Source of the DNA: Ligustrum vulgare
Lineage: Eukaryota > Streptophyta > Magnoliopsida > Lamiales > Oleaceae
Direction: 5' to 3'
NCBI GenBank assembly: GCA_963555705.1
Contig: OY743169.1
Coordinates: forward strand, 49,218,124 to 49,282,123
DNA length: 64,000 nt
A model generated the notes under the pieces. The model was not told where the DNA came from, made no database searches, and saw only the letters and a list, made by a program, of their open reading frames with translations. Each line of letters begins with the position of its first letter. Position 1 is the stretch's first letter. The position numbers and the translations under genes are program-made. Below, piece by piece: positions 19,191 through 56,628 of the stretch.

Positions 19191-19239
19191 AAATAGGAAT
19201 CAAAATTAATTTTAACAACACTACTAGAAAATGCGCCTA

Positions 19240-19520: not shown

Positions 19521-20095
19521 AAACATTAATTTGTTTCCAATTTTTTTGAATAAGTGGGCAGCTCTACCAAGTGTATTAAACAAAAATTGAATTTGTGAGC
19601 CCAAGTCTTGAAGCCCAACCAAAACACATTAAAACAAATGAAAAGCAGCATCGATGTGTTTCAAAGAAATAGAATCTGTCGATGTGTTCTTCAGTCAAAA
19701 TACATCCTTCTTTATTCCAAAGGACAAACCCTTCTTCCACACCCATCGATCAATTGTAGAGAAATTGAAGTGGATGAGAGGAATTGGAAATATATTGAGT
19801 TAACTCTTTACACTCTTTAGCTATTCCTGGTCTCAAATCCAAAAAACAGAGGCAAGGTAAATTTTTCTAAATTTAGATTTTGTTGTTGGAATTGAAGAAT
19901 CTACATTAAATTTTTTCCATGACATCAAAATATTAGATTTGATATTATTGGCGTAGAGTAGGCGTTAATGCACTTAATTGACTCATTAGTAATTAACATA
20001 TTCCTAGCATTCAACTTGTTTTGATCTGTTCATGTACAAAACCCAACTTTATGATAGCTGATTATCTTGTTTTTTGTCAGAAGTAATAGGTAATC

Positions 20096-23000: not shown

Positions 23001-23700
23001 TCACACAGTTGATCCCTGTATAAAGGCTTTGGCAATGGGTCCTCCTCGCATCATAAAAACTTATAATGGATATTTTGTCAACGGTTTTAGATTTCACACT
23101 GCAGACTATGGGAATGGGAAAACTACAATGAACAGTGGCGTATGCGTAGTTGGCAGTTGTCATAATGATTATGAGCGTGACTACTATGGTATGTTAACCG
23201 AAATATTGGAACTTGAATATTTAGGAGGTGTTGGAAATAAGATTACCTTATTCAAATGTGATTGGTTTGATAACAATGGCGCAGTGAGGGTGCATCGATG
23301 ATTTGGCCTCGTTGAGATTAATCATAAGAAGAAACTAGTAACCGGTGATGTCTTCATACTAGCTCAACAAGTTTATTATACCAAATTTCCTACGAAGGCT
23401 AGAGATAGGCTGGAATGGTGGGCAATTGTGAAAACAATAGCAAGGAGTGTCACAAATATACAAGGAATCATAGCAGAGAATGAAGAGTATAATGTGTGGG
23501 CGGAACTTATATTCCAAGAGGATCAACCCCCACCAGCCAGCAGCCTGTGCAAATAAATTTGGAGGTTGATCACCAAAATTTAATACGCGCTAATATCAGG
23601 GCTAAAGAAAATATAGAGTCCGATGCAGTTGATGTACAAGAAAATGCACAGCAAGATTGTGTGGATAGTGATGATTGTTTCACATCAAGTACAAGTGACG
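20096..23700 (+). pseudogene. CACTA TnpD-type transposase (multiple disabling mutations)
   Basis: The ATG at 20096 opens MRSDRSWISHRLDNG, the Transpos_assoc domain, with its CPC reduced to CP-stop (TGA 20231). Transposase_21 follows (about 20760-21560): ACVNDCILYYKE, ECPTCLSPRYK, LAPRLQRFYMSK, HPVHSEAWKHFDRTYPDF, GFNPFSMSN, DVYLRPLIDELRLLWD. DUF4218 spans about 22060-22690 (YRWMYPFDR / FLHHFKKKVRNRAHVE, LNCEEVIPF), then DUF4216 (about 22990-23330). Credible introns lie at 22322-22397 and near 22718-22795 and 22899-22987. Stops at 20231, 20947 and 21384 and frameshifts near 20600 and 21170 inactivate it. The family enzyme cuts CACTA ends. Confidence 0.92.
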
Positions 23701-23712
23701 GAGAAGCTTGTA

Positions 23713-26231
23713 CGGTTATTATTGTGTTCATTTATGCAGTCTGTTTATTTATTTATTTATTTTTTGGTTAAAATGATTCAATTTAACTTTGCCTTGAATA
23801 TTTATTCAAATAAATATTTTTAAAAGCGTGTCGCTTCGACCTGCCCATCATTTAGTTATTTTATTTTTAAACGCGTGCTCGTCTAGCCAGTTAAGTGAAA
23901 AATTTAATTTATTCAAAATCTTCATCAAATTTCAATCTTTATCAAAAGTATTTCAAATGTCACAATTTATTTGAAATCCAAGTATTAATTATATTGAGTC
24001 CCAATTTTAAATGTTTTAGTCCAACCATACTTATCGAGCCCAAATGTTTTTACCAGTCATTCAAGCCCATTTAAAAATCCAATAAGTCAATTCTTGGTCC
24101 AACAAATTCAATAGCTTCTTCCTCCCCAAGTCATTCCTTACACAATCGATACTTATTTCCAAAATTCTTGCAAGTTTTCCATAAATCAAGATTTAACCTA
24201 AACTACCATGTTTAACACCTAAATCAATTATATAATTCCTCCAACTCACCACCTTCATCACCAGCCACTGCCCAAGTTTTCAAGCAAAAGCCGTCTCTCC
24301 ATCAAGCCAAACCAATCTGTATCATCACCTTCACCAACAGACTGCCAAGCTAAATTTCTCTGCACATCACCACTGCCCAACCAACCTAATCACCAACTCC
24401 AATCCAGCCACCGAAACCACCATCATTCAAATGGCAACCACCAATGAATCGATTTCAATTTCTATTTCCAACAATTTCCATTTCAAGATTTAAAACCACC
24501 AGTTAACCAATTCATCAAGCAGCCATCATCTGAATCAAACTTCCATTGTCTGCAATCCAACGAATCACCACCAAATTTGCAAATCACCAATTCAATCATA
24601 GACCACCGAGTCATCAGCCCAACTCCCCTGCAACTATAACTGCTCAACACCACCATCACTGCAGACACAGTAATCATCTGCACTACTCAACCGACCAAGA
24701 ACCACCACTGTTTCCAACCGTCTGCAACCACAATCCAAACATCACTGCAGAACCTCAATCTCAAAGCCATAACCAAAATCCCCAATTCAACACCACATCA
24801 CCTAATCCAATTTCGAACCCTCCATAACCGGCAGCCCACCCCAAATCAACCACAAATAAAACTCAAACCCCAGAAATAGAAGAAGTATAGAACTTTACCT
24901 TGACCTCATGACCATATTCACCGGTTTTTCGCCGGAGAAATCACGATCCAAGCAGCGGTCAACTCGGGTTCTTCGCACCAAACCACACAAAAACAGCCCA
25001 AAACCTTTTTGTCTCAAACCCTCACACTCGCCTTCCCCACCGCCACGTGACGGCGGCGACAGCGCCGGCAGCAGTCAGGCCGGAGCGGGCGTGGATCGCC
25101 GCTGCTCTCTCTCTTTCTCTCCTCTGCTTACCGAACGATGAGAGAGAGGAGTGTAAATTGTTTTTAATATTTTTGATTTTTGGAAATTGCAGCTTAGCCC
25201 CCCAAGTTTGTAAAATGATTTAAATCAATCCTTGTAATTTTAAACTAATCATTTCAGCCCCCTTAAGTTTCTAAATGAGTTTTAATCAGCCCTTTCATTT
25301 TGAAAATCAATTATTTCAGCCCTATAGTTTAATATTCGTTTTGAGTTTCAACCCAACTTTCAAAGTATTCATTTTAGTCCATCAACTTTCTAAGTACTCA
25401 TTTTAGTCCCTCAACTTTCAAAAGTATTCATTTTAGACCCCAAGTTTTAAAATAATCATTTCAGTCCTCAATTTGTTATAAACAATAAATTTCTAAAGAA
25501 AAATTTAACATATGAGCTAGACGAGGCGCTTGGACATTTAGAAGAACAACGTGAACTTTCTTGCTCAACTTTCAGACTCGTGATTTAAGGTAGACTCGCC
25601 CCCATTAATTAGTTTAAATTATAATTGCATGTCTTATGTGAAATTACGTGATTTACATGCTTTGATGCATGAGACGAGGAAAGAATATCTCTTATGAGAT
25701 AAATGAGAAATGATGATGTTATGCATAACTTATGTGCCTTAAGTGCACGAGACGAGACTACCCACACCCTATGATTTTACGAGCCTTGATTTTGAAAATA
25801 AAATAGCCCAAGAATATGATGATGATGTCACTATATGATTGCATAATTACGTGTTCAATTATTCTGTAAATTAATTATTGGCGATGAGTCTACTGAGTAT
25901 TTTTTGAAATACTCATTCCATTATTTTAACAGTTTTTGCAGATCTCGGAGAAGGCGGCGAATGAAATGGGAGCGGTGGCAAATTAAATAAATGATGATGT
26001 TATTAGAAAATTTTACGAATGTTACTCGTTAAATTATTTATCGTTAATTTCATTTAAATAATTGGGATTAAATTTTTACGAATTGTTCTTTATTTAAATT
26101 AATCAAATTTCCGCTGAAGTTTTCAAATGATGAATGTGATGCTTTGAATTAAATTTATTTTCCGCAATAAAGTCAGTTTTAAAGGACGAAGTGGCGTCCC
26201 GGGCTCCGCGGAATTCGGAGCGTTACAATTT
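23713..26231 (+). mobile_element. LTR-like Ty3/gypsy insert (about 2.5 kb) in CACTA-1
   Basis: GCTTGTA stands immediately left (23706-23712) and right (26232-26238) of the block and reads through when the block is removed, so this may be the target site. The 3' part is typical of gypsy LTRs: repeated 'TTTAGTCC...AACTTTC' phrases (25.2-25.5 kb), CTACTGAGTATTTTTTGAAATACTCATTCC (25889-25920, split by a short loop), and a GC-rich end reading CGGAATTCGGAGCGTTACA. The left end lacks a clear TG start, and the 7-bp duplication is unusual for LTR elements, so the exact boundary is uncertain. Confidence 0.6.
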
Positions 26232-26238
26232 GCTTGTA

Positions 26239-27840
26239 AGGATGAGGCTTTAGTTTTATTGTAGGATTAGACTGATTTTGGTAGAATTTAAATTGCTTGT
26301 AAAAATTTTGTTTTGCTTGCAGAATTTTTTTTCTTGATTTCTATTTTATTGGAGGATTAGACTTTATTTTAGATGACTTTTTGCATACTGTGACCTTCAT
26401 TTCTCCTTTATTTGTTTGTTTTTGATAGCTTAATTTTCTTAACTAACTTTCATTTTGCTTGTTTATGGATTAGATTGAGATCATTGATGTGAAGTGGCTA
26501 GGACTCGACTAGCTGCAATTCTAGCCCTCCCACAGGGGTTTCCATCAGCTTGTTTTGTGTTCATTCCCTGATTTTCAAATGTTGCTTATAGGTTCCCTTG
26601 AAGCATTATTTTATATTCGTTTTGAGCTTGTTAGATGGTAAATGATGAATGAATTATGATTGATTGGTTTACCCTATATAATTTGTGTTGTCTTTATGTT
26701 CCTTTCATCAATAAGGTATATGCTGGTAATGAGCCTCATTTCCTTCTTGTTTACTGATCTGAAATAGGTCTTCTTGAATTAGCATTTGGCTACATTATCC
26801 CAATGCATACCAATGACAATTGACAACATCAGTAACAAAACCAGCAACAACAATCTAATTTCCCAGCAACAACAACAATCTAATTTCCCACCACCATCGC
26901 ATTGGAAACTAGTAATAACAATGAACCAAAATCATCAAAAATCATCAAAATTCGTTGATGGAAAAAGGCATAATAGCAAAATAAAGGAAGAATTCAGTTT
27001 GCATTGCACCAAAGTTGGGTTTTATTCATGTTCAACCTCAAAAAAATCTACACTTGCATACACAACTCAAAATAACCTACTTCTTCAAACAAAAACTAAA
27101 TTCTAAATAAAAGCACAATCTCAGTGGAAATCAGACAAGATTGGACACAACATTTAAGAAGTTACAAAAATTGGCTATCATCATCTCTACATTATCCAGA
27201 TTCGAACAAAAAAGTACATATTGGCAGTTCCCTCTGTAACCAGAAGTAGCAGTCTCCACTAGAAATCAGAAACTTGATTCGAACCCACAAGAAATCGTAA
27301 ACATGATGTTGAACCCACTAAAAATTGCAAACTCGATGTTGAACCCAGCAGAAATCAAAAACTTGATGTTGCATCCAGAAGAAAGTGAAAACTCGATGTT
27401 GAACCGAGAACTTGATGTTCAATCCACAAGAAAGTGAAAACTCGATGTTCAATCCAGCAGAAATCAAAAACTTGACGTTGAACCATTTTCCGTTATCTCC
27501 TAATCTGTGAATACGAATTGGTATTTATTGAGTCTTGAATCTGCTTAAAAATTTCATATAAGATTGAGATCGGACTGTAGGGGGTGGTGTCATTGATGGT
27601 GAGATCTTGGAGTGGTGTGGTGGATGGATTCAGGCCGTAGAGTGGAGGTTGAGTCAATGCAAGTCTCACAACAACAGATTAGGGGTGTGAAGGACTTGGA
27701 GGAGATAAATGAGTTAGGAAGAACAGTATTTAGAATTATTGTTCCTTTTTTTAATTTTTATTTGTAAATTCGAATTTAAAAAGATAAGAATTAGTTATAT
27801 GGATAAATATAAAATTTGAGATAGAATGTGTAATTATATT
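26239..27840. other. CACTA-1 interior, no assignable gene
   Basis: Unassigned sequence between the LTR-like insert and a microsatellite. A 106-codon frame at 26786-27106 is rich in N, Q and S and has no recognisable domain; I doubt it is real. Confidence 0.4.
27262..27484. repeat. About 30-bp degenerate tandem repeat
   Basis: Units of the type GAACCCACAAGAAATCGTAA followed by ACATGATGTT recur about seven times with substitutions and one shortened unit. The 30-bp period would keep frame in a protein, but no gene context supports coding. Confidence 0.8.
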
Positions 27841-27849
27841 GAGCCTCCA

Positions 27850-27913
<64 letters not shown>

Positions 27914-27914
27914 T
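27850..27914. repeat. (ATT)n microsatellite
   Basis: About 21 uninterrupted ATT units inside CACTA-1. Confidence 0.97.
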
Positions 27915-27974
27915 GTGAAGTGGTCCAACTGTTGTAACTAAAAAATTCAAAACATATAATGAACATGAGATTAA

Positions 27975-29340
27975 AAATAATCAACGGAGCCTTCGACTAG
28001 AGGTCCGTACGAGAATGCATTTGAAGTTATAGATTTAAAATCAAGTTCCGATTGATTTGTAGTTTGAGATATGAAGACGTAATGAGGCACTAGTTGTGGA
28101 TAATGGTGGTACCTGAACAATAGTCAAGGAAACCTGAGGTGGAAACTGGAATAAAGTGAATTGTGTTCTTGTATCTATTGCCAATTCCCTCATTTCTTCA
28201 TTAAAAATAATCAACAGAGCCTTCGACATGAAGTTTGCATGAGAAGACATCGAAGTTATAGATTTCAAATTCAAGTGTCGATTGATTTCTAGTTCGAGAT
28301 ACCAAGACTTAATGAGGCACCAATAACTCGAGTACCGTGGAGAACAGTGGTACTCAAACAATAGAGAAGGGAACCCGACGTGGAAACTAGAAATACAGTG
28401 AATCGCATTCTTGTCTCCAGATTGTGATGGAGTACAGGATCGCAACAAGTGAATTCCCTGGTGGTTCAACTTCAAATGGTTCTAGAAATCGCATATGGTG
28501 TCAGAATGACTATTATAATATGTTTTCGGAATTATCTCGACGAGCTCTACAAGACTCATGGATTCACCGCGAGTATAGGATCAAGCATTGGCCTTGTTTG
28601 AGCGTTCGGGATGGCAAACATGTGGGTTCGTAGGTGGTTCAATTTCAAATGTCTCTAGAAATCACATACGGTGTCAGAATGACTATTATAATATGTTTTC
28701 GGAATCATCTTGACGAGCCCTACAAGTCTCATGGCTATGCTATGATAACGATGGATTTTAGTCATTTGAAGTCGTTTACTAAGTTAAAAACTGCGTTTTG
28801 TTATTTCATTTATTGTTTTCAGTCCTTTTTTCTTTTATTTCGCAAGTCCAATCCATTTTGTTGTCGAAGCCCTTTATGGATTTGTATTTAAACTCTTTCA
28901 TTATTAATTTTAGGTTTTGGTTGATTTTGAATAAAAAGTTTGTGAGATTTTATTAAATTGCAATCCGTATTTGAAGTTTAATTTCCGATTGTGTTATTTG
29001 TGGATTTCGTTGGTGAGCCAACATCACATTGGAAATTCCCTCCTTTAATCATTAAAAACAATCAATATAGCCTTCAAATAAAGGTTCGAGTATTGGTTCG
29101 GTCATTGGGGAGAATGGTGCTACTTGAACAATAGACAAGGGAACCCGAAGTGGAAACCGAAAATATAGTGAATCGCATTCTTTTCGCCTTCGAAATTCTT
29201 TTTGTGGGGTTGATGAGGCCCTCATTGTGAATAAACCATCACATTATCGTACTTAAAAAATATGTTATAACGTAATGAGACATTAGTAGCCTGAGTATTG
29301 CGGAGAACAGTTGTACTTGAGCAATACATTATGAAAAGTC
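27975..29340. repeat. Diverged duplicated blocks in CACTA-1
   Basis: A block starting AAAAATAATCAACGGAGCCTTCG near 27975 recurs near 28204 and, more diverged, near 29053 (ending with AACCCGAAGTGGAAAC). A second duplication (GTGGTTCAAYTTCAAATG, with TGACTATTATAATATG) occurs at 28461 and 28634, 173 bp apart. The second type resembles gypsy LTR sequence. No gene is evident. Confidence 0.7.
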
Positions 29341-29702
29341 AAATATTGTGGACTTGGTTGAGATTGAATGTTTTAAAAACCAGGGGCCAAACATGGGCTC
29401 AATAGTTACTCTATTTTTTGTATATATTAATATACATTTTTACTTTTTCCATTTTATACTAGTTTTTCATCTCAAAGTCATTATGCTATAAATTAAATTA
29501 CACCCAAATTTCATCAGCCCCTCAATTCCCGCTGAATTCACCCAAAATTCAATTCCCGCGCGCTATTTTTCCTTGCTTAATTAACCATTTCCCCTTTAGA
29601 AACCCACCAAATTAGGGCTATGGTTTCTCCTTCTCGCCATTTATCCCTTCCTCGAAAACCAATATCTGATCTCGATCTTTTGTAGAAACATAAGATAAGA
29701 GG

Positions 29703-32146
29703 ATGATTATCAAAGCAAGATGGAATGCAATGCCTGGGGTTCGTGGATTGCAAGATGAAAACGTTGATTACTCGGATGAAGATTATGCCCCTGGCTGTGA
29801 GGTTGAAACCGAAGACTCTCTTTCTACAGATGAGAGTGAAGATGCTAGTAATCGGACAAGGGGTCCTAATCAGGGTACTAATGGTTCCTGTGTGGATGAA
29901 TATGGGCGTATCATCTTAGAAGAAGGTGATGATAGGTAAATGAGTTCATTTTTTTCTACATTCTATATATTGAGTTATGTTTATTGCTTCCTGTACCAAA
30001 TGTTTTGAAAGACATGATATTAGTGCACCCTAATGAAATATTTTTAGTTATGTTCATGTTTCTTGTATTATTTAGTTATATTTATTGATTTTTAACATTG
30101 AAACCCAGTTCTGAATTTATGTGCCTCAATGCCGGAATTTTGGTTGGTTTACGATAGACAATTTCACATTCAATGGTTTGATAACAAGTGATTTGCTTGT
30201 TAAATGGTACTGGTAATGGACTGGTTCACCCAGTTCTTAATTTATGTGCCTTGGTGCTAGAATTTTACTTAGTTTAAGGTTGACTATTTCCCATTCAAAG
30301 TTTTGATAACAAGTAATTCCCTTGTTAACTGGTACTGGACTTATTAGCCTGAGAACAAGTGGTTTTCTTGTATCTATTCTTTCCCTATAAGAGTATAGTT
30401 TCATATCAAATATAAATTAGAAATTGACCAAATAGTGGTGTTAAACCTGGAAAGATTGTGCATCTCTTGACAGATTAAAGAAAGCTAAAAACTTTAGGTG
30501 GATATCACTTAAATGTGCAGACTCAAAGGTAAACATGACCAATAAACCTAGTTATTGGTACTGGTAACTAAAAATGACTCAAATGTTGTTACAATTTCTT
30601 CTTGCCACTTTGTCATCTGTTGTGGGACAAATTCAAGGTTGTACAGATTTGTTGCTTGTGTGAACTTATTAATCTTGATCCTCTCCAATTAATATTTGAC
30701 ATTTTGATAGGCACAATACTCTTGTCCGGAAAATAAGGAATGGCAGGTGAAGAAAGAGTGGAATACTGCTTCAAAAGATCGACTTCTTGATGCATTTTTG
30801 TCGTGCTCGCAATGAGGCCAAGAAAAAAAGTGGGAAACCAACTGGTGCTGCTAATTGGAAAGGATTTGGATCAGAATGATTAAGTCCGGAACACTGGAAT
30901 GAGATCATAGATACATGGTGGGATAATGATAAATGATCGAGAAGTCTAAAGTTGGTCATGCTAACCGGTTAACTTTGAAGTCAGGGTCATAAGAAACATC
31001 TGGTATTACATTTTCTTTCATAAGTTTGTTGAATATTTTATAATTAAGTGATTCTCATTTACTCATTAATAAATAGAACATGCTCAAATATTCAATTAAC
31101 CAGCTTCACTATCATCATGAAAGTGATGATAGGATACATTTTCTTTCATAAGTTTATTGTCAGGTGCTTCAAAGTTTCTTTGAAAGATAATTTAACTCTT
31201 GTGTCTCAAATAAATGAAGGAGAGTTGTAGTGTAATGGTTGAGTTGAGTTGAGTTGGTGTTTTCAGGGGTTTCATATTTTCTTTGAAAGATAATTTAACT
31301 TTTCTGTCTCAAATAAATGAAGGAGAGTTGTAGTGCAATGGTTGAGTTAAGTTGGTGTTGTCAGGGGTTTCACATAGGTTTTGTAAGATGAACTAATTTC
31401 CATTTACTTTGAGAGATAAGTTTTAGCTTTAGACTCTAACTTCAGATTTTTCTTTTTTGAAAATGGTATTCTTCTACATGTTGCACATTGTGAATTCCTA
31501 TTCTTCAAGTTCAATGACTTTACTGTTACAAATATCTACATGACGATAACCAAATCTTTTGTTTGCAGCATGCTAAATTAGGAAAGCCACCAACTGCTTC
31601 ACAGTTGTTCAAGCGTACACATCGGCGAAACGAAGGAGAAGGAGACTATGTAGACAAAAAATCGAAAATTGTTTGTGTAAGTACACTTATTTTGACTTAG
31701 TAGTCTGCCCATAGTTTTTGAGTTCTTTGGCCTAAGCTCTTCTTAGGAACATGCAACTGCTTCACATATTTTACATGTTAGATTGATTGGATCGTATGTT
31801 TCTATATTTTTTTTAGGAAAAGTATGATCTTTGTATTGAAGAAAAGTATGGTCGAGATGAGTTTTTATATCCTGAAATTAATATTGGTGCATGGTACGAA
31901 GCAAGCCAAGGCCCAGGTAAGGGAGGTCATTTATATGGGCTTAGAATTCGTTGTCCAGCCATGCACAAACTTGGCTCATCTTCCAATTCACTATCAAATG
32001 AAAATGATGATGATATTACTGTCTTGAAAGAGAATTTTTGCAATGCTTGTGCAAAACTAGATGACCTAACTCTTGAGAAGGAAGAATTACTTCAACAAAT
32101 GGATGAGAGGGCACAAGAAGAAGAAAGGAAATGCAAGGCATTTTAA
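29703..32146 (+). pseudogene. CACTA second gene, Transposase_24 (Ptta/En/Spm) type, broken
   Basis: Exon 1 (29703-29938) encodes an acidic N-terminus (DENVDYSDEDYAPG...ESEDASN) and ends at a GTAAAT donor. A later exon (about 30720-30990) reads KKEWNTASKDRLLDAFL, then after shifts ARNEAKKK, SPEHWNEIIDTWWDND, EKSKVGHANRLTLKSGS. The next exon (31568-31677) reads HAKLGKPPTASQLFKRTHRR and YVDKKSKI; the last (about 31818-32146) ends with a glutamate-rich coiled segment (LDDLTLEKEELLQQMDERA). This order matches Transposase_24 proteins of CACTA elements, thought to bind subterminal repeats as TnpA does. A frameshift near 30800 and stops in the second part disable it. Confidence 0.82.
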
Positions 32147-32574
32147 GAGAATGTATTGAGGATGTTGGGTGATAGGAATGCGTTGACTTGTTAACTTCTG
32201 GAAGCACACTTGGGGTCTCGAGATTGTTTTTGTTCATAAAATAGCATTAGTAGAAAGTGTGCTCGTAATTATTTGACTTAGATTATTCACTATTTTTTTG
32301 TTTTGTAAGTGTACATCTGTTAGGGAAACATGGGATATGATGTATTATATTGTTCACTATCTTTTGTCTTGTAAGTGAACATGTGTTAGGACAACATGGG
32401 ATATGATGTACTTCTATTTTGTTTTGAACAGTGAATGCAAATGTTGATTACTTTATGTTAGATGGTTCTTTTTAAATATTTTTAATGTAAATAAAAAGAA
32501 AAAAGAAACTATATAGTATATTTAGTTGCAAATGTTTTTAATTTAGTATTATTTTCAAGCAATATATAGCAATG

Positions 32575-33090
32575 AAATATATTGTAGCTAATTAGCCACC
32601 GATTAGCGACAATGTATTAATGTTGGTAATTAAAAACTATCAACAATAAATGTTGGTGGAAATTCGCTATGGATTAGTGACAAAACATATCATTGGTATT
32701 CACAAACAGACTAGCGACAACATATGTCGTAGCTAATTAGCAACGTAATTTAGCAGTGGAATATAGTTCGTCTCTGTTTACCAATGGACTATAGTTCGTT
32801 GCTACTTTAGCAACGAAATATAGTTCGTCTCTGATTACCAACAGAATATAGTTCGTTGCTACTTTAGCAACAAAATATAGTTCGTCTCTGTTTACCAACG
32901 GAATATAGTTCGTTGCTACTTTAGAAACGGAAGATATTTCATTGCTATTTAGCAACGGATTCAAATATCTGTAGCTAAGATTAGCAACAAGGGTATCTGC
33001 AATGGTTTTAGCAATGGAATGGTTCTGTTGCTAATGCCTCTTACCAACGTAAATCAGACCTTCAGCAACGGAAATTTCTGTTGCTAAAGG
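32575..33090. repeat. CACTA-1 right subterminal repeats
   Basis: About a dozen units such as TAGCAACGAAATATAGTTCG and TTCGTTGCTACTTTAGCAAC. The central block (32760-32960) is a clean tandem array with a roughly 59-bp period. Similar but sparser repeats occur at the left end. Confidence 0.88.
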
Positions 33091-33110
33091 CGCGTTTTCT
33101 TGTAGTGCAA

Positions 33111-36427: not shown

Positions 36428-36644
36428 GTCCCAGAGCATATCTCTCAGTGCTAAAGGGAAAGGTAGGAAACTTCTTCAGCCCAGTCGAGTGTAGGGTTTG
36501 AATCCTGAAAAAATGAATTTGTGCCGTGTAGCAAGCGGGAGTTACCACCATTCGATGAAGTTACCAATGCCTTTTACCCTGGCTCTGGGAGGCATAACCT
36601 GTTATTTACCTCTCGAACCAATGACCACTACAACAAAAGTGACC

Positions 36645-37230
36645 TTTTACGACATGAATTTACGGCGTGCATATAGGGCACGCCGTAAATCTTAATTATT
36701 TACGGCGTGCATAAAATGAATGCCGTAAAGGAATATCTTTTACGGCGTGCATAATTAGCACGCCGTAAAATTTCATTTATTATCACCTTTAACGGCGTAA
36801 ATATTCGCACGCCGTAAAAATTTTAAAAAAAAAATTATATTTTTTACGGCGTACATATTCGCACACCGTAAAAATTTTAAAAAAAAAATTATATTTTTTA
36901 CGGCGTACATATTCGCACGCCGTAAAAATTTTTAAAAAAAAAAAAAAAAAAATTTTACGGCGTACATATTCGCACGCCGTAAAAATTTTTTACAAAAAAA
37001 AATTTTTTACGGCGTACATATTCGCACGCCGTAAAAATTTTTCAAAAAAAAAAAAAAAAATTTTTACGGCGTACATATTCGCACGCCGTAAAAATTTAAA
37101 AAAAAAAAAAAAATTTTACGGCGTACATATTTGCACGCCGTAAAAATTTAAAAAAAAAAAAAAAAAAATTTTACGGCGTACATATTCGCACGCCGTAAAA
37201 ATTTAAAAAAAAAAAAAAAATTTTTTTACG
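36645..37230. repeat. CACTA-3 left subterminal palindromic repeats
   Basis: About twelve hairpin-forming units of the type TTTTACGGCGTACATATTCG followed by CACGCCGTAAAAATTT. Arms of 8-13 bases surround a loop of about 9, and units are separated by poly(A)/poly(T) runs. From 36840 to 37200 the array is nearly perfect. Confidence 0.92.
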
Positions 37231-37746
37231 GGCTAAAATCTCCTCGGGCGCTTCCAAGATAGTATAATTTTGCAGAAGGGTAACGGACTTCGTGAGATGA
37301 TTCGTTGTAAGAACTTGAAATCTGGACTTCAATCCGAATATGGATCGAGCTGAGTCGAGCATGGATTCCAAAGAGGTGGCACAAAACTTGGTTTCTCCTT
37401 TAAGTGGTGGAAATTCACAATGTTGTAGGGTATTTTCCATTGCTTTGGCTTGTTTTGAACCCTTTAGGAAGGAGAACAGTTGAAGAATATAGGGAAGATT
37501 TTCTGATGAGAAAGGAATAGAATCAGATTCTTGTTTGGACAGCAAAGGGGGAGACGTTGAAGGGTCTTTTATTGGGAAGTAGATAGGCATTTTCTTCCCA
37601 ACATTAAGTTCATTGATATAAAAGAACACATTTAGTTGAGGATCCAAGTGATTCTCATGTGACTTTGAATGTTCATATAAATTACTGCCAGATTTTCCAT
37701 TGTATCTTTCGATGTTCTCCCCATGTGCTTCAGTCATCTCGATGCG
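37231..37746 (-). pseudogene. Captured BURP-domain gene, exon 2 fragment (3' truncated)
   Basis: Minus-strand open frame: a variable linker, then the BURP domain with VFFYINELNVGKKMPIYF, SDSIPFSSENLPYILQLFS, KAMENTLQHCEFPPLKGET, KFCATSLESMLDSARSIFG and LLQNYTILEAPEEI. This matches the N-terminal half of BURP domains. The family's later CH-repeat half is missing: coding similarity stops at about 37231, where CACTA subterminal repeats begin. No stop codon interrupts the fragment. An acceptor (TTGCAG) precedes it. BURP proteins are plant-specific secreted or wall-associated proteins. The fragment is out of context and probably non-functional. Confidence 0.88.
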
Positions 37747-37900
37747 CTGCAATGGTGTCAAAATTAGATAAAACTTCGTAATATGTACTACTCAAATTTA
37801 GAGAAAAATATATAGAAACTTATCCGAACCGCGATTACTGGATAAAGATTTATGCAGTTCATGAAATTATAGTGCAGAAAGAAGGAAGAAAACAATATAC

Positions 37901-38002
37901 CTGCAACACAAGTAGTGAGCAAAAAAGGTGGACAAGAAAACCAAATCCAAAACCCATATTTTCTTTTCTTGTATCTGTTCTATGTCCAATAATCTTCAGC
38001 TT
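37901..38002 (-). pseudogene. Captured BURP gene, exon 1 with signal peptide
   Basis: ATG at 37957 (minus) opens a 19-codon coding segment, MGFGFGFLVHLFCSLLVLQ, a hydrophobic signal-peptide-like start. It ends at a GTATAT donor (37900) and is followed by a 154-bp intron ending TTGCAG before exon 2. BURP genes commonly have a short signal-peptide exon first. About 45 bases of leader precede the ATG after another possible acceptor (TTGCAG). Intron retention shows the capture was at DNA level, not from mRNA. Confidence 0.75.
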
Positions 38003-38960
38003 CTGCAATAATAATAATACCAAAATAATGACTATTTAGTATTAGGTAGTGAGATGCACATAGCTAAGAACAAGGAATTTCCTTTAAATATAACCTCATG
38101 GTGATGCCTTGTACAGTGATTTTCCAGAGAATATTGAAATGCTCTTATGGAGTTTGATTCTATTTTGATGGTTGAAAAATGGTATTTAATAGTTTATGTC
38201 CCTATCTGCTGAATTGGAGTTCTTCATATATAATCTTGATTTGATATTATTTAATTATTTTGTCAATGGGTTTGAAAGAAATATCTCAAGAGCGGTTAAT
38301 CGCGATCGTTACAATTTACTTCTCTTTATAACATTCACATCAAGAAATATAATTAGATTAGTTAAAATCTCTAAATTTTTTTCGGGATCAGCATTCCCCC
38401 ATCCCATGTTGATTAAGAATTTAAAAATCTAATTATCGAGAGGTGGGATACATCCAAACTCAACTCGAATCTTAAATAAAATGATTTTATATAGTCAAAT
38501 TAAAGGCAAATTCTAGTTTCTACAATGTCAAAAATGCAATCCAACATTAAAAAAAAGGTTATGATTTTGGATAGACTTGTAGAAGATGAGTAGACATTTC
38601 ACATTCATATTGATCATGTTTCCAAAGGCTGCTTCAACTTTGACAATTTGAAGATGCCTATTAGTTGAATCATGAGGGTGGATATGTGGATGAGTGTCAC
38701 TTTTCAAGAATTGGTTTGTACCAAACTATACTTTTCAAATTACTCGATTGTCTATCACAATCTATACAGATTTATGTTAAATCGAACGATTTGACAAAAG
38801 ATATTGCATATCGGTAGAGTTCAGATTTGCCGTCTCAAAATGGTGTCTCCTTAGTTGTCCACCAAAATGGAGTTTTTCGATTTATACAGATTTATGTTAA
38901 AATGGAGTTTTATACAGATTTATACAGATTTATGTTAAAATGGAGTTTTTCGAAACTTTC
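38003..38960. other. Interior of CACTA-3 upstream of the BURP fragment
   Basis: No coding signal. By position it may be the captured 5' flank or leader intron of the BURP gene. Near 38880-38945 a TTTATACAGATTTATGTTAAAATGGAG phrase is locally repeated. Confidence 0.4.
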
Positions 38961-39894
38961 AAGACTCGAATAAAACGCTATAAAAATATTCAGGCTGAAA
39001 ATAACATATTTTTAAATTAAAGGATAGAGTTTTGAAATATTTGAACTCGTGGGCCGAAATGAAACATTTGGAACATTGGGGACTAAAATGTAATTTTTCA
39101 AAACTTGGGTTGAAGCTCAAAACGGATATTAAACTGTAGGGATTGAAATAATTGATTATTAAAATGAAGGGACTGTTTAAAATTATTTAAAAACTTAAGG
39201 GGCTGAAATGATTAGTTTAAAACTATAAGGACTAATTTGAATAATTTTAAAACTTGGGGACTAAGCTGCAAATTTTGAAAATCAAAATATTAAAAACAAA
39301 CCTTACTCTCTCTTTCCCAATTCATTTTCAGAACTGAAGAGAGAGAGGAGAGGCGCGACCGGGAGTGGCCCTCCGCGCAACCGGCCCTCAGCCAGAGAGT
39401 TGCCGGCGAAACGCCACCGCAGGGTGGCGGTTAGCGGCGACCAAGAAGGGGGTCAGATTTGAGGGAGTTTGGTGCGAGATGGGTGTAAAACCGAGACCAA
39501 AAACGAAGCTGAGTTCGTGATTTGCTATGGTTTTCGGCGAGCTTACCGGCGGTCGAGGTAGGTAAGTATCTTGGGTAATTTGTTTCTTGGGTTTGAGTTT
39601 GATTTTGGGCTGATTGGAGTTGGGTTGACCGCAATTTTGGTGGTGCAGCAGGTGGTTCTTGGTGGTTGACGACGAAAGGGTTGTGGTGGTGTTGTGGAAA
39701 TGGTTGATTGTTATGGGTTGAGTGATTTCTTGAGGTTGGGTAGAGATGAAATTGGAGGTTGGCCGTGACTTTGGAGTCTTGGCAGTGGGCTGGTTGTTTG
39801 GCAGTGGTGGTGCTCGATTGTGATGGTGTTCATCGAGTGGCATGACTGGTTGGAAGGATGGTGCAGTGGAGCTTGGTGCAGGCAGTTCAATGTG

Positions 39895-39925
<31 letters not shown>

Positions 39926-40000
39926 GGAGGTGGCGGATGTGGTGGTGTTGCAAATGGTGAGGTTGAAGCTCGAGGTTACCTGGCTGTGGGAGGTGGCTGG
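38960..40000. repeat. Gypsy-LTR-like fragment in CACTA-3 (inverted relative to the other two copies)
   Basis: Repeated 'AACTTGGGGACTAA' and 'GGGGCTGAAATGATT' phrases, a GAAGAGAGAGAGGAGAGG tract and a GC-rich patch (39350-39440) are the reverse complement of the order seen at 16.8-17.8 kb and 24.2-25.5 kb. Open frames here are low-complexity histidine, asparagine and proline-rich artefacts. A (GAT)n run lies at 39897-39922. Confidence 0.6.
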
Positions 40001-40009
40001 AATGGAGTT

Positions 40010-40114
40010 GACAGCCTAAACTTTGATGGAAGGCTATTCATAATTGGCTTCATGGGTGGAACAAAAGCAGAAGTAAATCTTGCAGGGTTGCTACCAAGAC
40101 GCCTCACAGTGCAG
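40010..40114 (+). pseudogene. Captured exon of a PIG3-like (zeta-crystallin family) quinone oxidoreductase
   Basis: One frame reads DSLNFDGRLFIIGF, MGGTKAEVNL, AGLLPRRLTVQ. This matches the cofactor-domain segment 'LNxDGRLxxIGFxGG...EVNLxxLLxKRLTVQ' of plant PIG3-type NADPH:quinone oxidoreductases in the MDR family. TTGACAG just upstream is a plausible acceptor, and the similarity ends at Q, a known exon-end position as far as I recall. Only about 35 codons remain, so no enzyme can be made. It is the second host gene represented in CACTA-3. Confidence 0.8.
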
Positions 40115-40740
40115 TGTAACATGCTTAAGCCTTCTGCTATTTATATTATTCCTCTGTTTCAACTTTGTTTGTTTATTTGGTCTATTCATGGAAGAACACA
40201 CTCACACACGGAATCATCAAGGTCTCTTGCATCAGTATATGGTAAAGCTTATCCTTATTACGTACATTATATGGTAAGAACTGGTTTTTGCAAAGACAAG
40301 AACAATTATGTCTTTTAAGTAGTGCATTTTTTAAATGTAAGTTTGATAGATTAGGGCCCTGAAGCATTACCCTTGTACACTTCTTTGCTGATAGACTGCT
40401 CCAATCATTCAGGTGGATTTCTCTCTACACATTTGTGGGTTACTTTCTGAAAAATGAAAAATGACTAAAATGCTCCAAAAAAACATAAAAACAATTTAAA
40501 GAATGTCCGTTTTGACTGTCTAAACGATCTCGAAAGGCTAAAATCCATCATACGTCACGGCGAAGCGGTGAGTCTTGTCTGGCTCGTCGAGACCTTTCCG
40601 AAAAGTACTTATGGGCCCAAAACGAACTGGAGAGTACTGGAGTTTGCAGTCACATTCTGATCTTCTCTAGTGGAGAATACCTCTAATGTTTGTGTGTCAT
40701 AATTGTTTTTCTTAAAGACAAGTTTGATGGTTTATTGCAG

Positions 40741-40830
40741 CCAAAAACGGTGAACGCATTTCAGAGGGTTAAAGTTGATCAGGTGAAGTTTGTGGATGAG
40801 AGGCTTCAAGATAATTCGTACTGGGCAAAG
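40741..40830 (+). pseudogene. Captured SRP40/NOLC1-type gene, exon a
   Basis: Preceded by TTTATTGCAG (acceptor) and followed by GTTTGA (donor). The exon reads PKTVNAFQRVKVDQVKFVD, ERLQDNSYWAK. This is the start of the SRP40 C-terminal domain (FQRVxVDEVxFxDxRLxDNSYWAK) of nucleolar phosphoproteins related to yeast SRP40 and NOLC1, linked to snoRNP assembly. The next piece of the domain is in exon b in the same phase. Confidence 0.88.
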
Positions 40831-41015
40831 GTTTGATTTTTTTCCCTTTTATTGATCCTTCAAATGCCATTGCATTTGTATATCTATTGACATTTTTTTA
40901 TGGATACACTATGCATTTGCAAAATTTATATGTGCAAACAGATAGAATCATAGATATTGGTAGAATGTAGATATGTATATGTTTACGCGAATTTAATATT
41001 TTGACCCCATCAATG

Positions 41016-41017
<2 letters not shown>

Positions 41018-41112
<95 letters not shown>
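41018..41112. repeat. (ATT)n microsatellite in the captured SRP40 intron
   Basis: About 31 uninterrupted ATT units between the two SRP40 exons. The open frames spanning it (poly-N, poly-L) are artefacts. Confidence 0.97.
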
Positions 41113-41113
<1 letters not shown>

Positions 41114-41129
41114 CGTAGTTTCCTCACAG

Positions 41130-41191
41130 GATGGAGCCGACACTGGCTATGGAGCAAAAGCACAAGAAATTTTGGGTCAGGTCAGAGGAAG
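41130..41191 (+). pseudogene. Captured SRP40/NOLC1-type gene, exon b
   Basis: After the acceptor TCCTCACAG the exon reads DGADTGYGAKAQEILGQVRGR and is cut by a GTATGC donor within the arginine codon. It continues exon a: in the family, NSYWAKDGAxxGYGAKAQEVLGQVRGRDFRHEKTKKKRG. The basic tail that should follow was not found. A later possible exon after GTGCAG at 41587 (VKSPDTSYGQDVSKEAES) does not match the family and is unassigned. Confidence 0.88.
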
Positions 41192-41929
41192 GTATGCTAT
41201 TGTGTTTTATGTGCCGAAATACTGAATGTCAAGTTCACCTAGTCTAGTATGTTTATGGACAAAGCTCAGATAATATGTGTAATGAGCTCAGGTACTGCTA
41301 CAGAGATGAACTACAGAGATGAACTGGGAAAAAGAAGATAAAAATGCGTAGATGGATAGTGAACTCCTGTTGTAAACAGCATAAGTGGGGATAACTCACC
41401 GGATAATTTGTGGTTCTTAAAAAATAATAAAACATGCTCGTGGGGGTTTAAATGACTTATTAGTAATATAAGGAGTAGTGGGTCATGTGAAATGCGAGGA
41501 TAATAATGGGTTGTAGTTATAAATGTGTGGTTGAAACTAATGTTCTATTTTGATTGCTAAGTTTAGCTTGCTATTGTTCTGTGCAGGTAAAGTCTCCCGA
41601 TACAAGTTATGGCCAGGATGTGTCAAAGGAAGCAGAGTCAATGAAATTCCATGTTAAAGCTTCGATATGGATACTTTTATTTTTTACGACATTTTAAGTT
41701 TATTTTGAAGTAGTTGTCTATAGACTTTTAACATTAATTCCTATCTAGATTTTTGAGTAGGTTATGTGATATCAAATTTTTTGTATATTGTGTTGAATCT
41801 TACTATGATATTGTTTGTTTATCGAAATCACGTTTATTGATTATATATACATTAATGTGTTTTTGTTTTATTATTATAGGATTTTTGGAATTATAATTTA
41901 TAGAATTTTTTTTTTAAAAAAATAAAATC

Positions 41930-42180
41930 CTTATTTACGGCGTGCATTTTGAACGCCGTAACAGTTCACGGCGTGCAAAAATGCACGCCGTAACTGTTCA
42001 CGGCGTGCAAAAATGCACGCCGTAAAATATTTAACGGCGTTCAAAATGCACGCCGTGTAAATTTAATTTACGGCGTGTGGATTTGCACGCCGTAAATGTT
42101 TACGGCGTGACTTTTTACGGCGTGCGGCTGCACGCCGTAAAAATGATTTTACGGCATGCAATGCACGCCGTAAAAGGCTA
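41930..42180. repeat. CACTA-3 right subterminal palindromic repeats
   Basis: ACGGCGTGCAAAAATGCACGCCGTAA-type hairpins repeat about six times, mirroring the left array but with shorter spacers and GCATGC-like centres. Confidence 0.9.
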
Positions 42181-42258
42181 ACTTTGTTGTAGTGGACCCA
42201 GGACAGGGTCGGTTCGAGCCCTTAAGGTGTGGGTTACACCTAGAGTGTGGTTATTCTC

Positions 42259-51475: not shown

Positions 51476-51997
51476 GGTTGAAAAGTGGAGTCAAAAGGTG
51501 GTTTCAACTTTTCTTTTGGGAGACAAATTGAAGTGGAAATAAATTAATGGAGCCATTATTCTTTCATTGGCAGACAAGAATGTGTGGAGGCAATTGTTTA
51601 ATGGTCACCAATTTTTCTTTTGCGTGAAAGTTGGACAAATTCTGCCTATAAATTGAGCCTCCGTTTGCAGTAAGAAACACATCAAAAATCAATACAAGCT
51701 CAAGAGAGAGAGAAAGTATAAACACAAGATATTTTCTTGTGTGGAGAGAAAAGTGAGTTGGAGAGAATAGTCTTTGTGCAGACAGATAAAAATATAGTGT
51801 AGTATTTTTGTACTCCTCATTTTTCGAGTTAGTGAAATATATTGGTGTGGGTCCGTGGACGTAGGCAAATTGCTGAACCACGTAAATCTTTGTGTTTCGT
51901 ATTTGCATTTTATTTTTGCGTATTTATATTTTCTCAGTCCAATTTATTTGTGTCACATCGATCCTGGGTGGGATTAGTTGCGTCCTAATTCTCAACA
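51476..51997 (+). repeat. 5' LTR of the Tnt1-like element
   Basis: 522 bp, ending CTAATTCTCAACA. The first base is G rather than the T found in the 3' LTR (GGTTGAAAAG versus TGTTGAAAAG), so the canonical 5'-TG is lost. As the 5' LTR it carries the promoter region; a GAGAGAGAGAAAG tract lies near 51704. Confidence 0.96.
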
Positions 51998-51999
51998 AT

Positions 52000-52011
52000 T
52001 GGTATCAGAGC
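52000..52011 (+). promoter_or_regulatory. Primer binding site (initiator tRNA-Met type)
   Basis: TGGTATCAGAGC, two bases after the 5' LTR, as in most plant copia elements. Confidence 0.95.
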
Positions 52012-52124
52012 TTTGGCTCATTGAGATCTTTTGAAATTCTTAGTATGCTCTGTGGTTGCAGCTTTGACTGATCTTCCACATCAGAAAAGATTTCTTTAGA
52101 CTGTTTTGTGATCGAGTGGGAGCA

Positions 52125-55100
52125 ATGTCGACAGATGAGAAAATATCCAAAATTGACAAATTTGATGGTTCAAATTTTGGATTTTGGAAAATGCAAATGG
52201 AGGACTATCTGTACCAGAAGGATCTATACAAGCCACTAAAAGAAAAGCCAGAAGATATAAGCCAGGGGGATTGGGAGTTGCTTGATCGAAAAGCACTCGG
52301 CACAATCAGGCTGACGTTGTCAAAGTCAGTGGCCTTCAACATAAAAAATGAGAAGACGACAGAGTCTCTCATGGCAGCCCTTTCTAGCATGTACGAACAG
52401 CCATCTGCAGCAAATAAAGTCCACTTAATTAAAAAGCTGTTCAATATGAAGATGGCCGAAGGCGGAAGATTTGGGGAGCACCTAAATGAATTCAATGAAG
52501 TGACGGACCAGCTAAACACAGTCGAAATCACTTTTAGTGATGAAGTTCGAGCTTTGTTAATTCTTGGGCAGTTGCCAGACAGCTGGAATGGTACAGTCAC
52601 AGCAATTAGTGGCTCTGCCGGAAAGTCAAAATTGAAGTTCGATGATGTCGTAAGCATGATCTTAACGGAGGAGATCAGACGACAATCAGAAGGTGCCTCA
52701 ACTTCAGGATCGGCGTTGAACGTGGAAAGCAGAGGCAGAAATTCTAACAGAGGAAATGGGCGGGGCAATGGCAAATTCAGAAGTGGAAGATCAAGATCCA
52801 GAAATTCAAACAATTCCAACAAAACTAAGGTTATGGAATGTTGGAAGTGTGGGAAGACCGGTCATTACAAAAACCAGTGTCCAACACCTCCAAAAGAAAA
52901 GGAGGACAGGACAGAAGTCAATGTTGTGGAAGAGGAAGCGGACGATGCTTTGATATGCTCTTTGGAGAGAAAAACGGAATACTGGGTGATTGATTCCGGA
53001 GCATCTTTTCATGCTACCTCAAACAAGGAGTTTTTTGTAAACTATACGCGGGGTGATTTTGGCAGAGTATATCTCGGTAATGATCAACCGTGTGACGTGG
53101 TCGGAAAAGGTGATGTACAGATCAAGATCAATGGATCTGTGTGGAAGCTGAAGGACGTGAGACATATTCCAGAATTGAGGAAGAACTTGATCTCCGTCAA
53201 GCAATTGTCGGGAGAAGGACATGTCACCACCTTCTCTGGTGATAACTGGAAGATCACCAAGGGCGCCATGATTATCGCTCGAGGCAAGGATACTGGCACC
53301 CTCTACACAACGGCGGATGCTTGTGTGACAATTGCAGTTGCTGAAAGCAAGGAGGGCCCAAACTTGTGGCACCAGAGACTTGGGCATATGAGTCAGAAGG
53401 GACTCAAGTATATGCATGCAAAGGGGAAACTACCAGAGCTTCAGTCTACTGATATAGACTTATGCGAGAGTTGCATCTTTGGGAAGCAGACCAGGGTGAG
53501 TTTCAACACTAGTGGCAGAACTCGGAAGCAAGAGAAACTTGAGTTAGTCCACACAGATGTCTGGGGACCAACCGCAGTTTCATCTATTGGCGGAAAGTCA
53601 TACTTTGTGACTTTCATTGATGACCACTCGAGAAAAGTGTGGGTTTATTTCTTGAGACACAAGTCCGAAGTATTCGATGTGTTCAAGAAGTGGAAAGCCA
53701 TGGTGGAAAATGAAACAGGATTGCGAGTAAAGAAACTGAGGTCCGACAACGGAGGAGAATATACAGATATGGCGTTCAAGAAATTCTGTTACCAGAATGG
53801 CATCAAAATGGAGAGGACGTTGCTAGGGACTCCACAGTAAAATGGAGTTGCAGAACGTATGAACCGGACATTAACGGAGAGAGCCAGAAGCATGAGGTTA
53901 CATGCAGGCTTGCCCAAACAGTTTTGGGCAGAAGCAGTCAACACAGCGGTGTACTTGATCAATCGAGGACCCTCGGTACCGTTGGATTACAGGATACCGG
54001 AGGAAGTATGGAGCGGAAAAGAAATAAAACTTTCCCACTTGAAAGTTTTTGGATGTGTCGCATATGCACATATTAGTGATCAGGCAAGGGGCAAGTTAGA
54101 CCCCAAATCATTAAAGTGCACATTCATTGGATATGGCGGAGATGAGTTCGGCTACCGCTTATGGGATGACCAGAACAGAAAGGTCATCAGAAGCAGGGAT
54201 GTCATATTCAACGAGAAGGTTATGTATAAGGACAGAAATGCAGTGCAGTCCGATGACACAGTACATGATGATCCAACATATGTTGAGTTGGATGATGCTA
54301 CAGAAAGTAGTACGTCGCAGCAGACAGAGGAGGATCTGCAGTTACAGGAGCCTGTTCTAGAGACTGATGCATCACAGTCTCCAGTCCCTGTTCTTAGAAG
54401 GTCAACCAGACCTCATGTTCCAAATAGAAAGTACATGAGTTACATGTTACTTACTGATGCAGGTGAACCTGAATGCTATCATGAGGCATGTCAGTTCGGT
54501 GATTCTGGAAAGTGGGAGCTTGCAATGAAAGATGAGATAAAGTCTCTCATCTCTAACCAGACGTGGGAACTAGCCGAGTTACCTACAGGAAAGAGAGCTC
54601 TACACAATAAGTGGGTGTACAGAATCAAGGAGGAACATGATGGATCAAAGAGATACAAGGCGAGGTTGGTGGTCAAAGGTTTCCAGCAGAAAGAAGGAAT
54701 TGACTACACGGAAATATTTTCGCCAGTTGTGAAGCTGACAACAATCAGATCAGTCTTGAGTATTGTTGCAGCAGAGGGTTTGCACTTGGAGCAGTTAGAT
54801 GTGAAAACTGCTTTCCTTCATGGTGACCTTGAGGAGAAAATATATATGCAGCAGCCAGAAGGCTTCTTAGTCAAAGGAAAGGAGAAGCTCGTTTGCAAAT
54901 TGAAGAAGAGCCTGTATGGCTTAAAGCAAGCCCCGAGACAGTGGTACAAGAAGTTCGACGGATTTATGCAGAAAAATGGCTACTTCAAATGTAATGCTGA
55001 CCATTGTTGCTACTTCAGGAGATTCGAGTCCAGTTATATAATTTTGCTACTTTATGTCGATGATATGTTAGTAGCAGGCTCAGATATGGACGAAATCAAG

Positions 55101-56015
55101 AAGTTAAAGATGCAACTGTCAGCAGAGTTCGAAATGAAAGACTTGGGTGCAGCGAAGCAGATTCTCGGAATGAGAATTTTCAGAGATAAGCAGAAGGGTA
55201 TCTTGCAGTTATCTCAGGCCAAGTACATTAGTCAAGTTCTGCAGAGATTTAACATGTGCAGTGCGAAGGCTGTCAGCACGCCACTAGCTAATCACTTCCG
55301 TCTATCTAGTAATCAGAGTCCTAAGACAGAGGACGAGATAAACTTCATGGCTAAAATACCATATGCCTCAGCCATTGGAAGTTTGATGTATGCCATGGTT
55401 TGTACCAGACCAGATATTGCTCATGCAGTGGGAGTTGTGAGCAGGTTTATGGCAAATCCAGGAAAGCAGCATTGGGAAGCAGTAAAGTGGATATTAAGAT
55501 ATCTACGGGGAACTACTGATAGATGCTTATGCTTTGGACGAGGCGAGGTGACTCTACAAGGTTTTGTAGATGCAGATTTTGCTGGTGAGGTAGATCGCAG
55601 AAGGAGCACTACTGGTTATGTTTTCACAGTAGGTACTACTGCAGTTAGCTGGATTTCGCAGATACAGAAGATTGTTGCTCTATCCACTACAGAAGCAGAG
55701 TACGTGGCAGTAACCGAGGCTAGCAAAGAAATGATCTGGTTACAGGGTTTGTTGGCAGAATTGGGATTCAGTCAGGAGAAGAATGTTTTGCACAGTGATA
55801 GTCAGAGTGCGATACATCTGGCAAAGAATTCAGCATTTCATTCTAGAACCAAGCACATTGGACTCCGTTATCATTTCATCAGGTCTCTTTTGGAGGATGA
55901 AATATTAACATTAGAGAAGATCCAGGGTAGTAAGAACCCAGCCGACATGATGACCAAGACAGTAACAAAGGAAAAATTGGAGTTGTGCTCAGCTTCAATT
56001 AATCTTCTGAAGTGA
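52125..56015 (+). pseudogene. Tnt1-like gag-pol polyprotein with one nonsense codon
   Basis: Starting at ATG 52125 the frame spans 1,296 codons plus TGA, with one internal TAA at 53838 (codon 572). Gag: KFDGSNFGFWKMQMEDYLY; knuckle CWKCGKTGHYKNQC from residue 239; protease DSGA with D290; LWHQRLGH pre-integrase; integrase D478 (TDVWGP), D541 (RSDNGGEY) and E577 (NGVAER), the DD35E spacing. RT has LDVKTAFLHGDL and YVDD (residues 977-980); RNase H has DADFAG, STTEAEY and HSDSQSAIHLA. The stop lies between D541 and E577 in TPQ-stop-NGVAER, where relatives have TPQQNGVAER, so integrase, RT and RNase H are lost from the product unless the stop is read through. Confidence 0.96.
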
Positions 56016-56106
56016 AGACAAAGGAAATGACTCACACCATATTTCACAAGGAGTTGCAAGGAGGAGGTGTCTCAGGTGAAGCCACATTTGTCTCCAAGTG
56101 GGAGAT

Positions 56107-56628
56107 TGTTGAAAAGTGGAGTCAAAAGGTGGTTTCAACTTTTCTTTTGGGAGACAAATTGAAGTGGAAATAAATTAATGGAGCCATTATTCTTTCATTG
56201 GCAGACAAGAATGTGTGGAGGCAATTGTTTAATGGTCACCAATTTTTCTTTTGCGTGAAAGTTGGACAAATTCTGCCTATAAATTGAGCCTCCGTTTGCA
56301 GTAAGAAACACATCAAAAATCAATACAAGCTCAAGAGAGAGAGAAAGTATAAACACAAGATATTTTCTTGTGTGGAGAGAAAAGTGAGTTGGAGAGAATA
56401 GTCTTTGTGTAGACAGATAAAAATATAGTGTAGTATTTTTGTACTCCTCATTTTTCGAGTTAGTGAAATATATTGGTGTGGGTCCGTGGACGTAGGCAAA
56501 TTGCTGAACCACGTAAATCTTTGTGTTTCGTATTTGCATTTTATTTTTGCGTATTTATATTTTCTCAGTCCAATTTATTTGTGTCACATCGATCCTGGGT
56601 GGGATTAGTTGCGTCCTAATTCTCAACA
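56107..56628 (+). repeat. 3' LTR of the Tnt1-like element
   Basis: 522 bp with canonical TGTTGAAAAG start and CTCAACA end, preceded by the polypurine tract. Confidence 0.97.

Follow-up and report, generated by a model that had tools for sequence, protein, structure and literature searches.

The kind of transposon described here is not new, as multi-gene elements of the CACTA superfamily have been known since Tgm-Express1, a 5.7-kb CACTA element reported from the wp allele of soybean with exon and intron pieces of five unrelated genes. We analysed a 64,000-nucleotide stretch of Ligustrum vulgare DNA (contig OY743169.1, positions 49,218,124 to 49,282,123; hereafter the window, whose numbering is used throughout) and found at 36626-42194 a CACTA element that comes close to Tgm-Express1 in size and likewise carries exon and intron pieces of several unrelated genes. 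Whereas the part of the published account used here presents Tgm-Express1 at a single mutant allele, with RNA evidence, the Ligustrum element is known from DNA alone; on the other hand, it is present in 15 copies, each of its gene donors has been located, its cargo includes a piece of a long terminal repeat (LTR), and the joins between its pieces can be read.

The element is also comparable to the Pack-CACTA and Pack-TYPE elements reported from Arabidopsis, rice and maize, which are non-autonomous DNA transposons that have taken up coding DNA and multiplied into families. The route by which gene pieces enter DNA transposons continues to be debated. For Pack-TYPE elements, the capture model set out in the sections of Gisby and Catoni (2022, PMC8903248) considered here, and credited there to Catoni et al. 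(2019), is the fusion of neighbouring insertions, whereas the joins of the Ligustrum element resemble template switching between chromosomes. Like the animal Pack-TIR elements, for which gap-filling and FoSTeST models are outlined (PMC8277862), it shows microhomology at breakpoints and a multicopy chimera that transposed afterwards; compared with the cases presented there, ours is a plant CACTA that draws on four or more sources. From Chenopodium, CACTA elements are reported that hold captured gene fragments together with satellite DNA (PMC8978399); there, the fragments are described as lying outside and upstream of the element's coding sequence, whereas no element coding sequence was found in the Ligustrum element. 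A search for CACTA gene capture in olive and the Oleaceae returned nothing on this element among the top literature matches, subscription journals being mostly outside its scope.

The element is one mobile unit, with a cargo derived at the DNA level from three genes still present in the genome and from a retrotransposon LTR. It begins with CACTACAACAAAAGT at 36626 and ends with AACTTTGTTGTAGTG at 42194, between GAC target-site duplications at 36623-36625 and 42195-42197, so that the matched CACTA termini and GAC duplications claimed in a preliminary description of this DNA were seen on both sides. The left end (36626-37226, plus strand) comprises the terminal inverted repeat and an array of ACGGCGTGC-type subterminal repeats whose number varies between copies, while the 3' part (41548-42194, plus strand) consists of backbone, right subterminal repeats and the terminal repeat. 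Within the element, ACGGCGT/ACGCCGT motifs are confined to 36662-37190 and 41937-42165 (start positions). The traits of the CACTA superfamily are present, namely CACTA-starting terminal inverted repeats, a 3-bp target-site duplication and subterminal repeats at both ends, and since Pfam recognised no transposase domain in the reading frames submitted (ten of the 62 listed for the element), the element is a non-autonomous member. The traits of Pack-TYPE elements are present as well: parent genes elsewhere, DNA-level cargo with introns, and transposition as a unit together with that cargo. In the host assembly (1.385 Gb, 51 contigs), the backbone at 41548-41931 recurs at at least 18 further places (best 40 of 447 first-look candidates scored).

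The preliminary description had suggested looking for other copies with the same cargo. Copy counts rest on searches with the BURP, SRP40 and PIG3 pieces described below (a whole-element search scored 40 of 5458 candidates), and these revealed 15 copies of the composite or of deleted forms: eight full, one bearing an insert and six internally deleted. That number in one genome is far beyond chance, and 14 of the 15 are flanked by matching 3-bp duplications. The SRP40 search (24 of 24 candidates scored) returned the 15 copies, the donor gene, one relative at 79% and seven sister elements. The eight near-full copies lie on seven contigs (two on C1 and one each on C2, C9, C11, C16, C17 and C19), measure 5.33-5.65 kb read in a single orientation and differ pairwise by 0.36-0.96%; the family has been recently amplified. 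The same composite at eight places, with matching duplications at seven (GAC, GTA, AAT, TAC, AGT, TTA and GTA), bears out the claim of a single mobile unit.

All seven of the other copies have matching duplications of their own. Six (L010-L013, L015 and L019) are internally deleted. The seventh, L009 (C5:38.70 Mb), was considered as a further deletion derivative and rejected, as it carries an LTR-like insert of about 2 kb at window position 37889-37893 with AAAAC on both sides; the insert begins with TGTAGCG, ends with CACA, and at its start resembles the reverse complement of the end of the LTR family found in the cargo. The idea that the deletion derivatives are pre-capture ancestors was also rejected, because L013, L015 and L019 group with particular full copies at sub-clade sites (41184 or 41690); the remaining three are uninformative at these sites, but each is broken at different cargo points. 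Two copies on C11, L012 and L007 (45.49 and 45.54 Mb), share one orientation and are separated by about 45 kb, as expected from local hopping.

Next to the left end lies the 5' part of a BURP gene (37227-38866, minus strand), recognised by Pfam and by comparison with its donor. It comprises a partial exon 2 (37230-37746, open over 172 codons in the window copy), an intron (37747-37900), the coding part of exon 1 (37901-37957) and upstream DNA to about 38866. The BURP domain (PF03181, E 1.9e-36) covers profile positions 1-136 of 216. Exons 1 and 2 had both been claimed on this strand; the domain, the intron and the donor support them, with the correction that exon 2 is incomplete, being cut off by the subterminal array. 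The donor, at C7:48.795-48.798 Mb (L014; 18 of 18 candidates scored), differs at 28 of 1599 aligned sites over three segments (1.75%). Its exon 2 lies in an open frame of 273 codons, which continues across the portion of the BURP domain that the element lacks, and its upstream part has about 1.18 kb plus 66 bp extra relative to the element, for which an insertion in the donor and a skip during capture are both possible. Near window positions 38836-38866, several C/T and G/A differences between donor and element fall within about 30 bp; the preceding stretch is nearly identical. The closest protein relatives, among the best four, are from Olea (77 and 67%), Forsythia (72%) and Abeliophyllum (73%). 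The captured exon 2 shows seven fixed differences from the donor, four of them amino-acid changing. Since the frame is shifted in three of the eight full copies (L002, and L003 with L004 by one shared change, hence two events), the piece has no product under visible constraint, and neither selection on the frame nor a protein-level role is supported; in the other five full copies the frame is open.

The second gene piece, of SRP40/Nopp140 type (40628-41459, plus strand), includes exons at 40741-40830 and 41130-41191 together with introns. Its SRP40_C domain match is weak and below the Pfam cut-off (E 6e-4 and 0.25), and the earlier identification of two SRP40-domain exons was settled by the parent gene at C11:9.388 Mb (L026), which differs at 6 of 603 aligned sites (1.0%). 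The two also differ in the length of a TTA repeat, and about 0.1 kb of the element (41244-41351) is absent from the donor. Among the closest protein matches listed, the best are from Fraxinus (75%) and Olea (73-78%).

The third piece (40008-40144, plus strand) covers part of one exon of a quinone oxidoreductase gene and runs a short way into the intron that follows; we take the gene to be of PIG3 type; the searches themselves gave PF00107 and a quinone oxidoreductase chain. The piece has no Pfam match of its own and reaches E 0.013 to one chain in the PDB, a quinone oxidoreductase chain, while the protein search found four proteins among six candidates (E 8.5e-12 to 4.1e-10, 76-78% identity), all with PF00107. 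Two donor copies at C2:50.319 Mb (L031) and C2:50.438 Mb (L030) are identical to it over 129 of 129 bp (15 of 15 candidates scored), within open exons of an oxidoreductase gene. The identity given to this exon in the preliminary description holds, both by protein matches and by the parent gene; the plausible acceptor site does not, because the piece begins inside the exon and lacks that exon's acceptor. The donors lie about 1.1 Mb from the window element on the same contig, from which nothing is inferred, the copies being on seven contigs. Parents were thus found for all three gene pieces, introns included, and the introns kept in the cargo agree with the capture at the DNA level that had been claimed.

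Three genes on both strands were correctly recognised beforehand as sources; they are not the whole cargo, which also includes an LTR fragment (38936-40011), a repeat-derived block (40146-40627) and an older remnant (41460-41547), all on the plus strand and all previously unnoticed. The LTR fragment matches the inside of five related solo LTRs of about 2.4-2.9 kb (two in L016 and one each in L017, L018 and L028), which start with TGTAGCG or similar, end with CTACA and are flanked by 5-bp duplications (GAAAC, AGCAG, GATGA, GTTGA and AGAAT). A reading of 39300-40000 as a host gene or a CACTA promoter was rejected on the basis of these matches. Sequence related to the same LTR family also occurs in two other CACTA elements of the window, at 17272-17751 (66-70%) in the one at 13928-18560 and at 25158-25964 in the one at 19219-33107. 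The block is common to a sister family, and parts of it occur in another dispersed repeat. The 88-bp remnant matches a stretch of L029 (C8:61.012-61.022 Mb) without a single difference. L029, a 3.05-kb relative that has the same ends and is flanked by a TAA duplication, contains an exon for ribosomal protein L34 (PF01199, E 6.3e-9) and is another Pack-CACTA of the family; a second stretch of L029, which presumably also resembles L34, has no Pfam match. Given this identity, the element is a palimpsest whose older cargo is mostly overwritten.

The sister family, here called family B, has seven members (L020-L025 and L027). Six of them have both ends and are flanked by matching duplications, while no left end was found for L023. 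It has in common with the window family (family A) the segments 40132-40627 and 40954 onward and, in six members (not L023), the left-end sequence. None of the seven has a BURP, LTR or PIG3 match, and other cargo occupies that position, which in L024 (2155-3636) is partly GC-rich and includes a stretch resembling an exon. Since the sister family has the SRP40 part without the other three, at least two capture steps are needed, which upholds this much of the serial capture claimed earlier; separate entry of the BURP piece, the LTR fragment and the PIG3 piece does not follow, as they could have come in through one complex repair event. Relative to the donor stretch L026, L024 retains 3353-3744 and lacks 3745-4077, and the window family starts at about 3749; the two families carry different deletions of a single SRP40 capture. 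A fixed difference at 41275 separates the 15 window-family copies from the seven sisters. In the shared segments the window copy differs from family B by 0-1.4%, about as much as copies within the family do, so that the events separating the families fell in a short burst.

The joins between the pieces bear on the mechanism of capture. The BURP/LTR join is a footprint (38867-38935, plus strand) of LTR sequence, reused BURP-upstream bases, LTR again and a duplicated 38-bp step; it is present in all eight full copies, and the reused bases correspond to about 38762-38784, some 100 bp earlier. One repeated step could be due to a later tandem duplication, which would not account for the jump back to BURP sequence already passed. 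Exact overlaps of 3 bp (BURP/LTR), 4 bp (BURP to LTR again), 4 bp (LTR/PIG3), 3 bp (SRP40/remnant) and 3 bp (remnant/3' end) were found, the last standing where BLAST suggested a 9-bp microhomology near 41548-41556, reduced to 3 bp exact. At the deletion joins the overlaps are 1 bp in L011, 4 and 3 bp in L012, 9 bp in L015 and 2 bp in L019, with four extra bases in L010, and thus at least 3 bp in three of six; L013, with about 7 bp by eye in a low-complexity stretch, was excluded from this tally. The LTR/PIG3, PIG3/block, SRP40/remnant and remnant/3' end joins and the deletions of L010, L011, L012 and L015 were measured by script, while both BURP/LTR joins and the block/SRP40 join (none of which has a script value), like the rest, were read by eye. 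Five of the nine internal joins thus overlap by at least 3 bp (binomial probability 1.3e-4), as do 8 of the 15 internal and deletion joins taken together (1.7e-6), compared with 6.7% of random joins in a simulation. No subterminal motif and no internal CACTA ends were found at the cargo-to-cargo joins. Searched on both strands with up to 4 substitutions allowed, the donor stretches L014, L026, L030 and L031 gave no match to the 19-base ends of the family, and they contain no ACGGCGT motif; a single 8-base CACTACAA/TTGTAGTG match in each of L014 and L030 was the only one among the four. Together, the microhomology at the joins, the back-and-forth copying between BURP and LTR and the lack of internal CACTA ends favour template switching over the fusion of neighbouring insertions.

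We therefore consider it probable that the element is a multi-fragment Pack-CACTA that originated by template-switching repair and was mobilised by a transposase from elsewhere. Mechanistically, an excision gap or a break within an older element would have been repaired from unrelated chromosomal templates, with the copying strand switching between them at short microhomologies. An earlier round would have left the SRP40 piece that is now also in family B, and another would have produced the BURP-LTR-PIG3 patchwork, perhaps in a single event. The composite would then have transposed as a unit, with the transposase supplied in trans, and later incomplete repairs would have given rise to the deletion derivatives. 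As passengers, which is most likely what they are, the gene pieces would simply have been carried along. A more specific version, that BURP, LTR and PIG3 sequences came from one repair event inside the CACTA, the strand moving from C7 to a dispersed LTR and on to C2 with a return to the earlier template, is put forward as a tentative proposal that may well prove wrong.

Several points weigh against this reading. The chance model behind the simulated joins is rough, its joins being drawn from the element's own interior, and several overlaps were read by eye. Exact overlap is lacking at four of the nine internal joins: subterminal/BURP, which keeps 7 bp in register (TTTTACG) before a mismatch and was strictly counted as none, LTR back to BURP, PIG3/block, which has one extra base, and block/SRP40. 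The full copy L003 is flanked by TAT and ACT and has no matching duplication. The exact source copy of the LTR fragment was not found, the three relatives compared being 5.4-5.8% different, and no autonomous partner with a transposase was identified. The order of the BURP, LTR and PIG3 pieces relative to the other cargo of family B is not polarised, and the BURP donor is more divergent than the SRP40 donor although SRP40 should be the older capture, a difference that is not significant (Fisher p 0.25).

Among the alternatives, the one that survives best is that each piece was trapped by the fusion of two neighbouring CACTA insertions that then moved as one. This is the proposed Pack-TYPE model, with supporting clusters in the sections of PMC8903248 considered here, and the C11 pair (L012/L007, same orientation) provides a local example of neighbours. 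We still regard it as unlikely: the BURP/LTR, LTR/PIG3, PIG3/block and block/SRP40 joins are free of internal ends and subterminal motifs, the gene donors lie on three contigs with no family ends in the flanks fetched, and the BURP/LTR join runs back and forth.

A different question, raised in the preliminary description for chimeric or antisense transcripts, is whether the element might act on its parents, by chimeric transcripts or small RNAs that would alter the BURP, PIG3 or SRP40 genes. The parts for a transcript can be predicted (a donor-like site in the LTR at about 39561, the SRP40 exons and a 3' exon-like stretch at 41587), the splice sites are as in the donors, identities of 98-100% to the parents would permit targeting by small RNAs, and spliced chimeric transcripts are reported for Tgm-Express1. 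From the donor-like splice sites and this precedent, transcription of the cargo exons is possible. With the BURP frame broken in three of eight full copies and every gene piece truncated, an effect on the parents nevertheless seems improbable.

Other classes of plant transposon are reported to gather gene pieces as well (PMC1947982), so a BURP-LTR-PIG3 collage might have been assembled elsewhere, in another element or by chromosomal rearrangement, before it came to lie between CACTA ends. However, with all first-look candidates scored, the BURP and PIG3 pieces occur only in these elements and their donors, apart from three more distant or short BURP matches; no place was found where the pieces sit side by side outside a CACTA element, and the parents are on C7, C11 and C2. 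A free collage is thus largely refuted in the assembly examined, and we give this origin very little credence. Finally, that two or more separate adjacent insertions mimic one unit has nothing in its favour and is refuted by eight full copies with the same piece order at eight places, seven of them with matching duplications.

The window contains further mobile elements. The CACTA at 13928-18560 has an ATT duplication; some 0.4 kb of other sequence, with a match to a plastid rpl16 intron (Rfam RF04334, 18038-18084), breaks up its right subterminal array. The one at 19219-33107, of 13.9 kb and with a CAA duplication, carries broken transposase frames (Transpos_assoc and DUF4218, with DUF4216 below the cut-off); it is an unlikely partner of the 36626-42194 element because its termini differ. 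At 51477-56407, Copia-type retrotransposon frames lie between two identical 300-bp stretches.

The value of this family is that donors, sister family, derivatives and joins are all readable within one assembly. It is young, its three gene donors still being 98-100% identical at aligned sites, and it offers a test case for template switching against neighbour fusion and for the rate of cargo turnover. If the patchwork did arise in a single event, one and the same process would account for both capture and internal deletion, and a plant Pack-CACTA would be able to capture genes without the need for neighbouring insertions.

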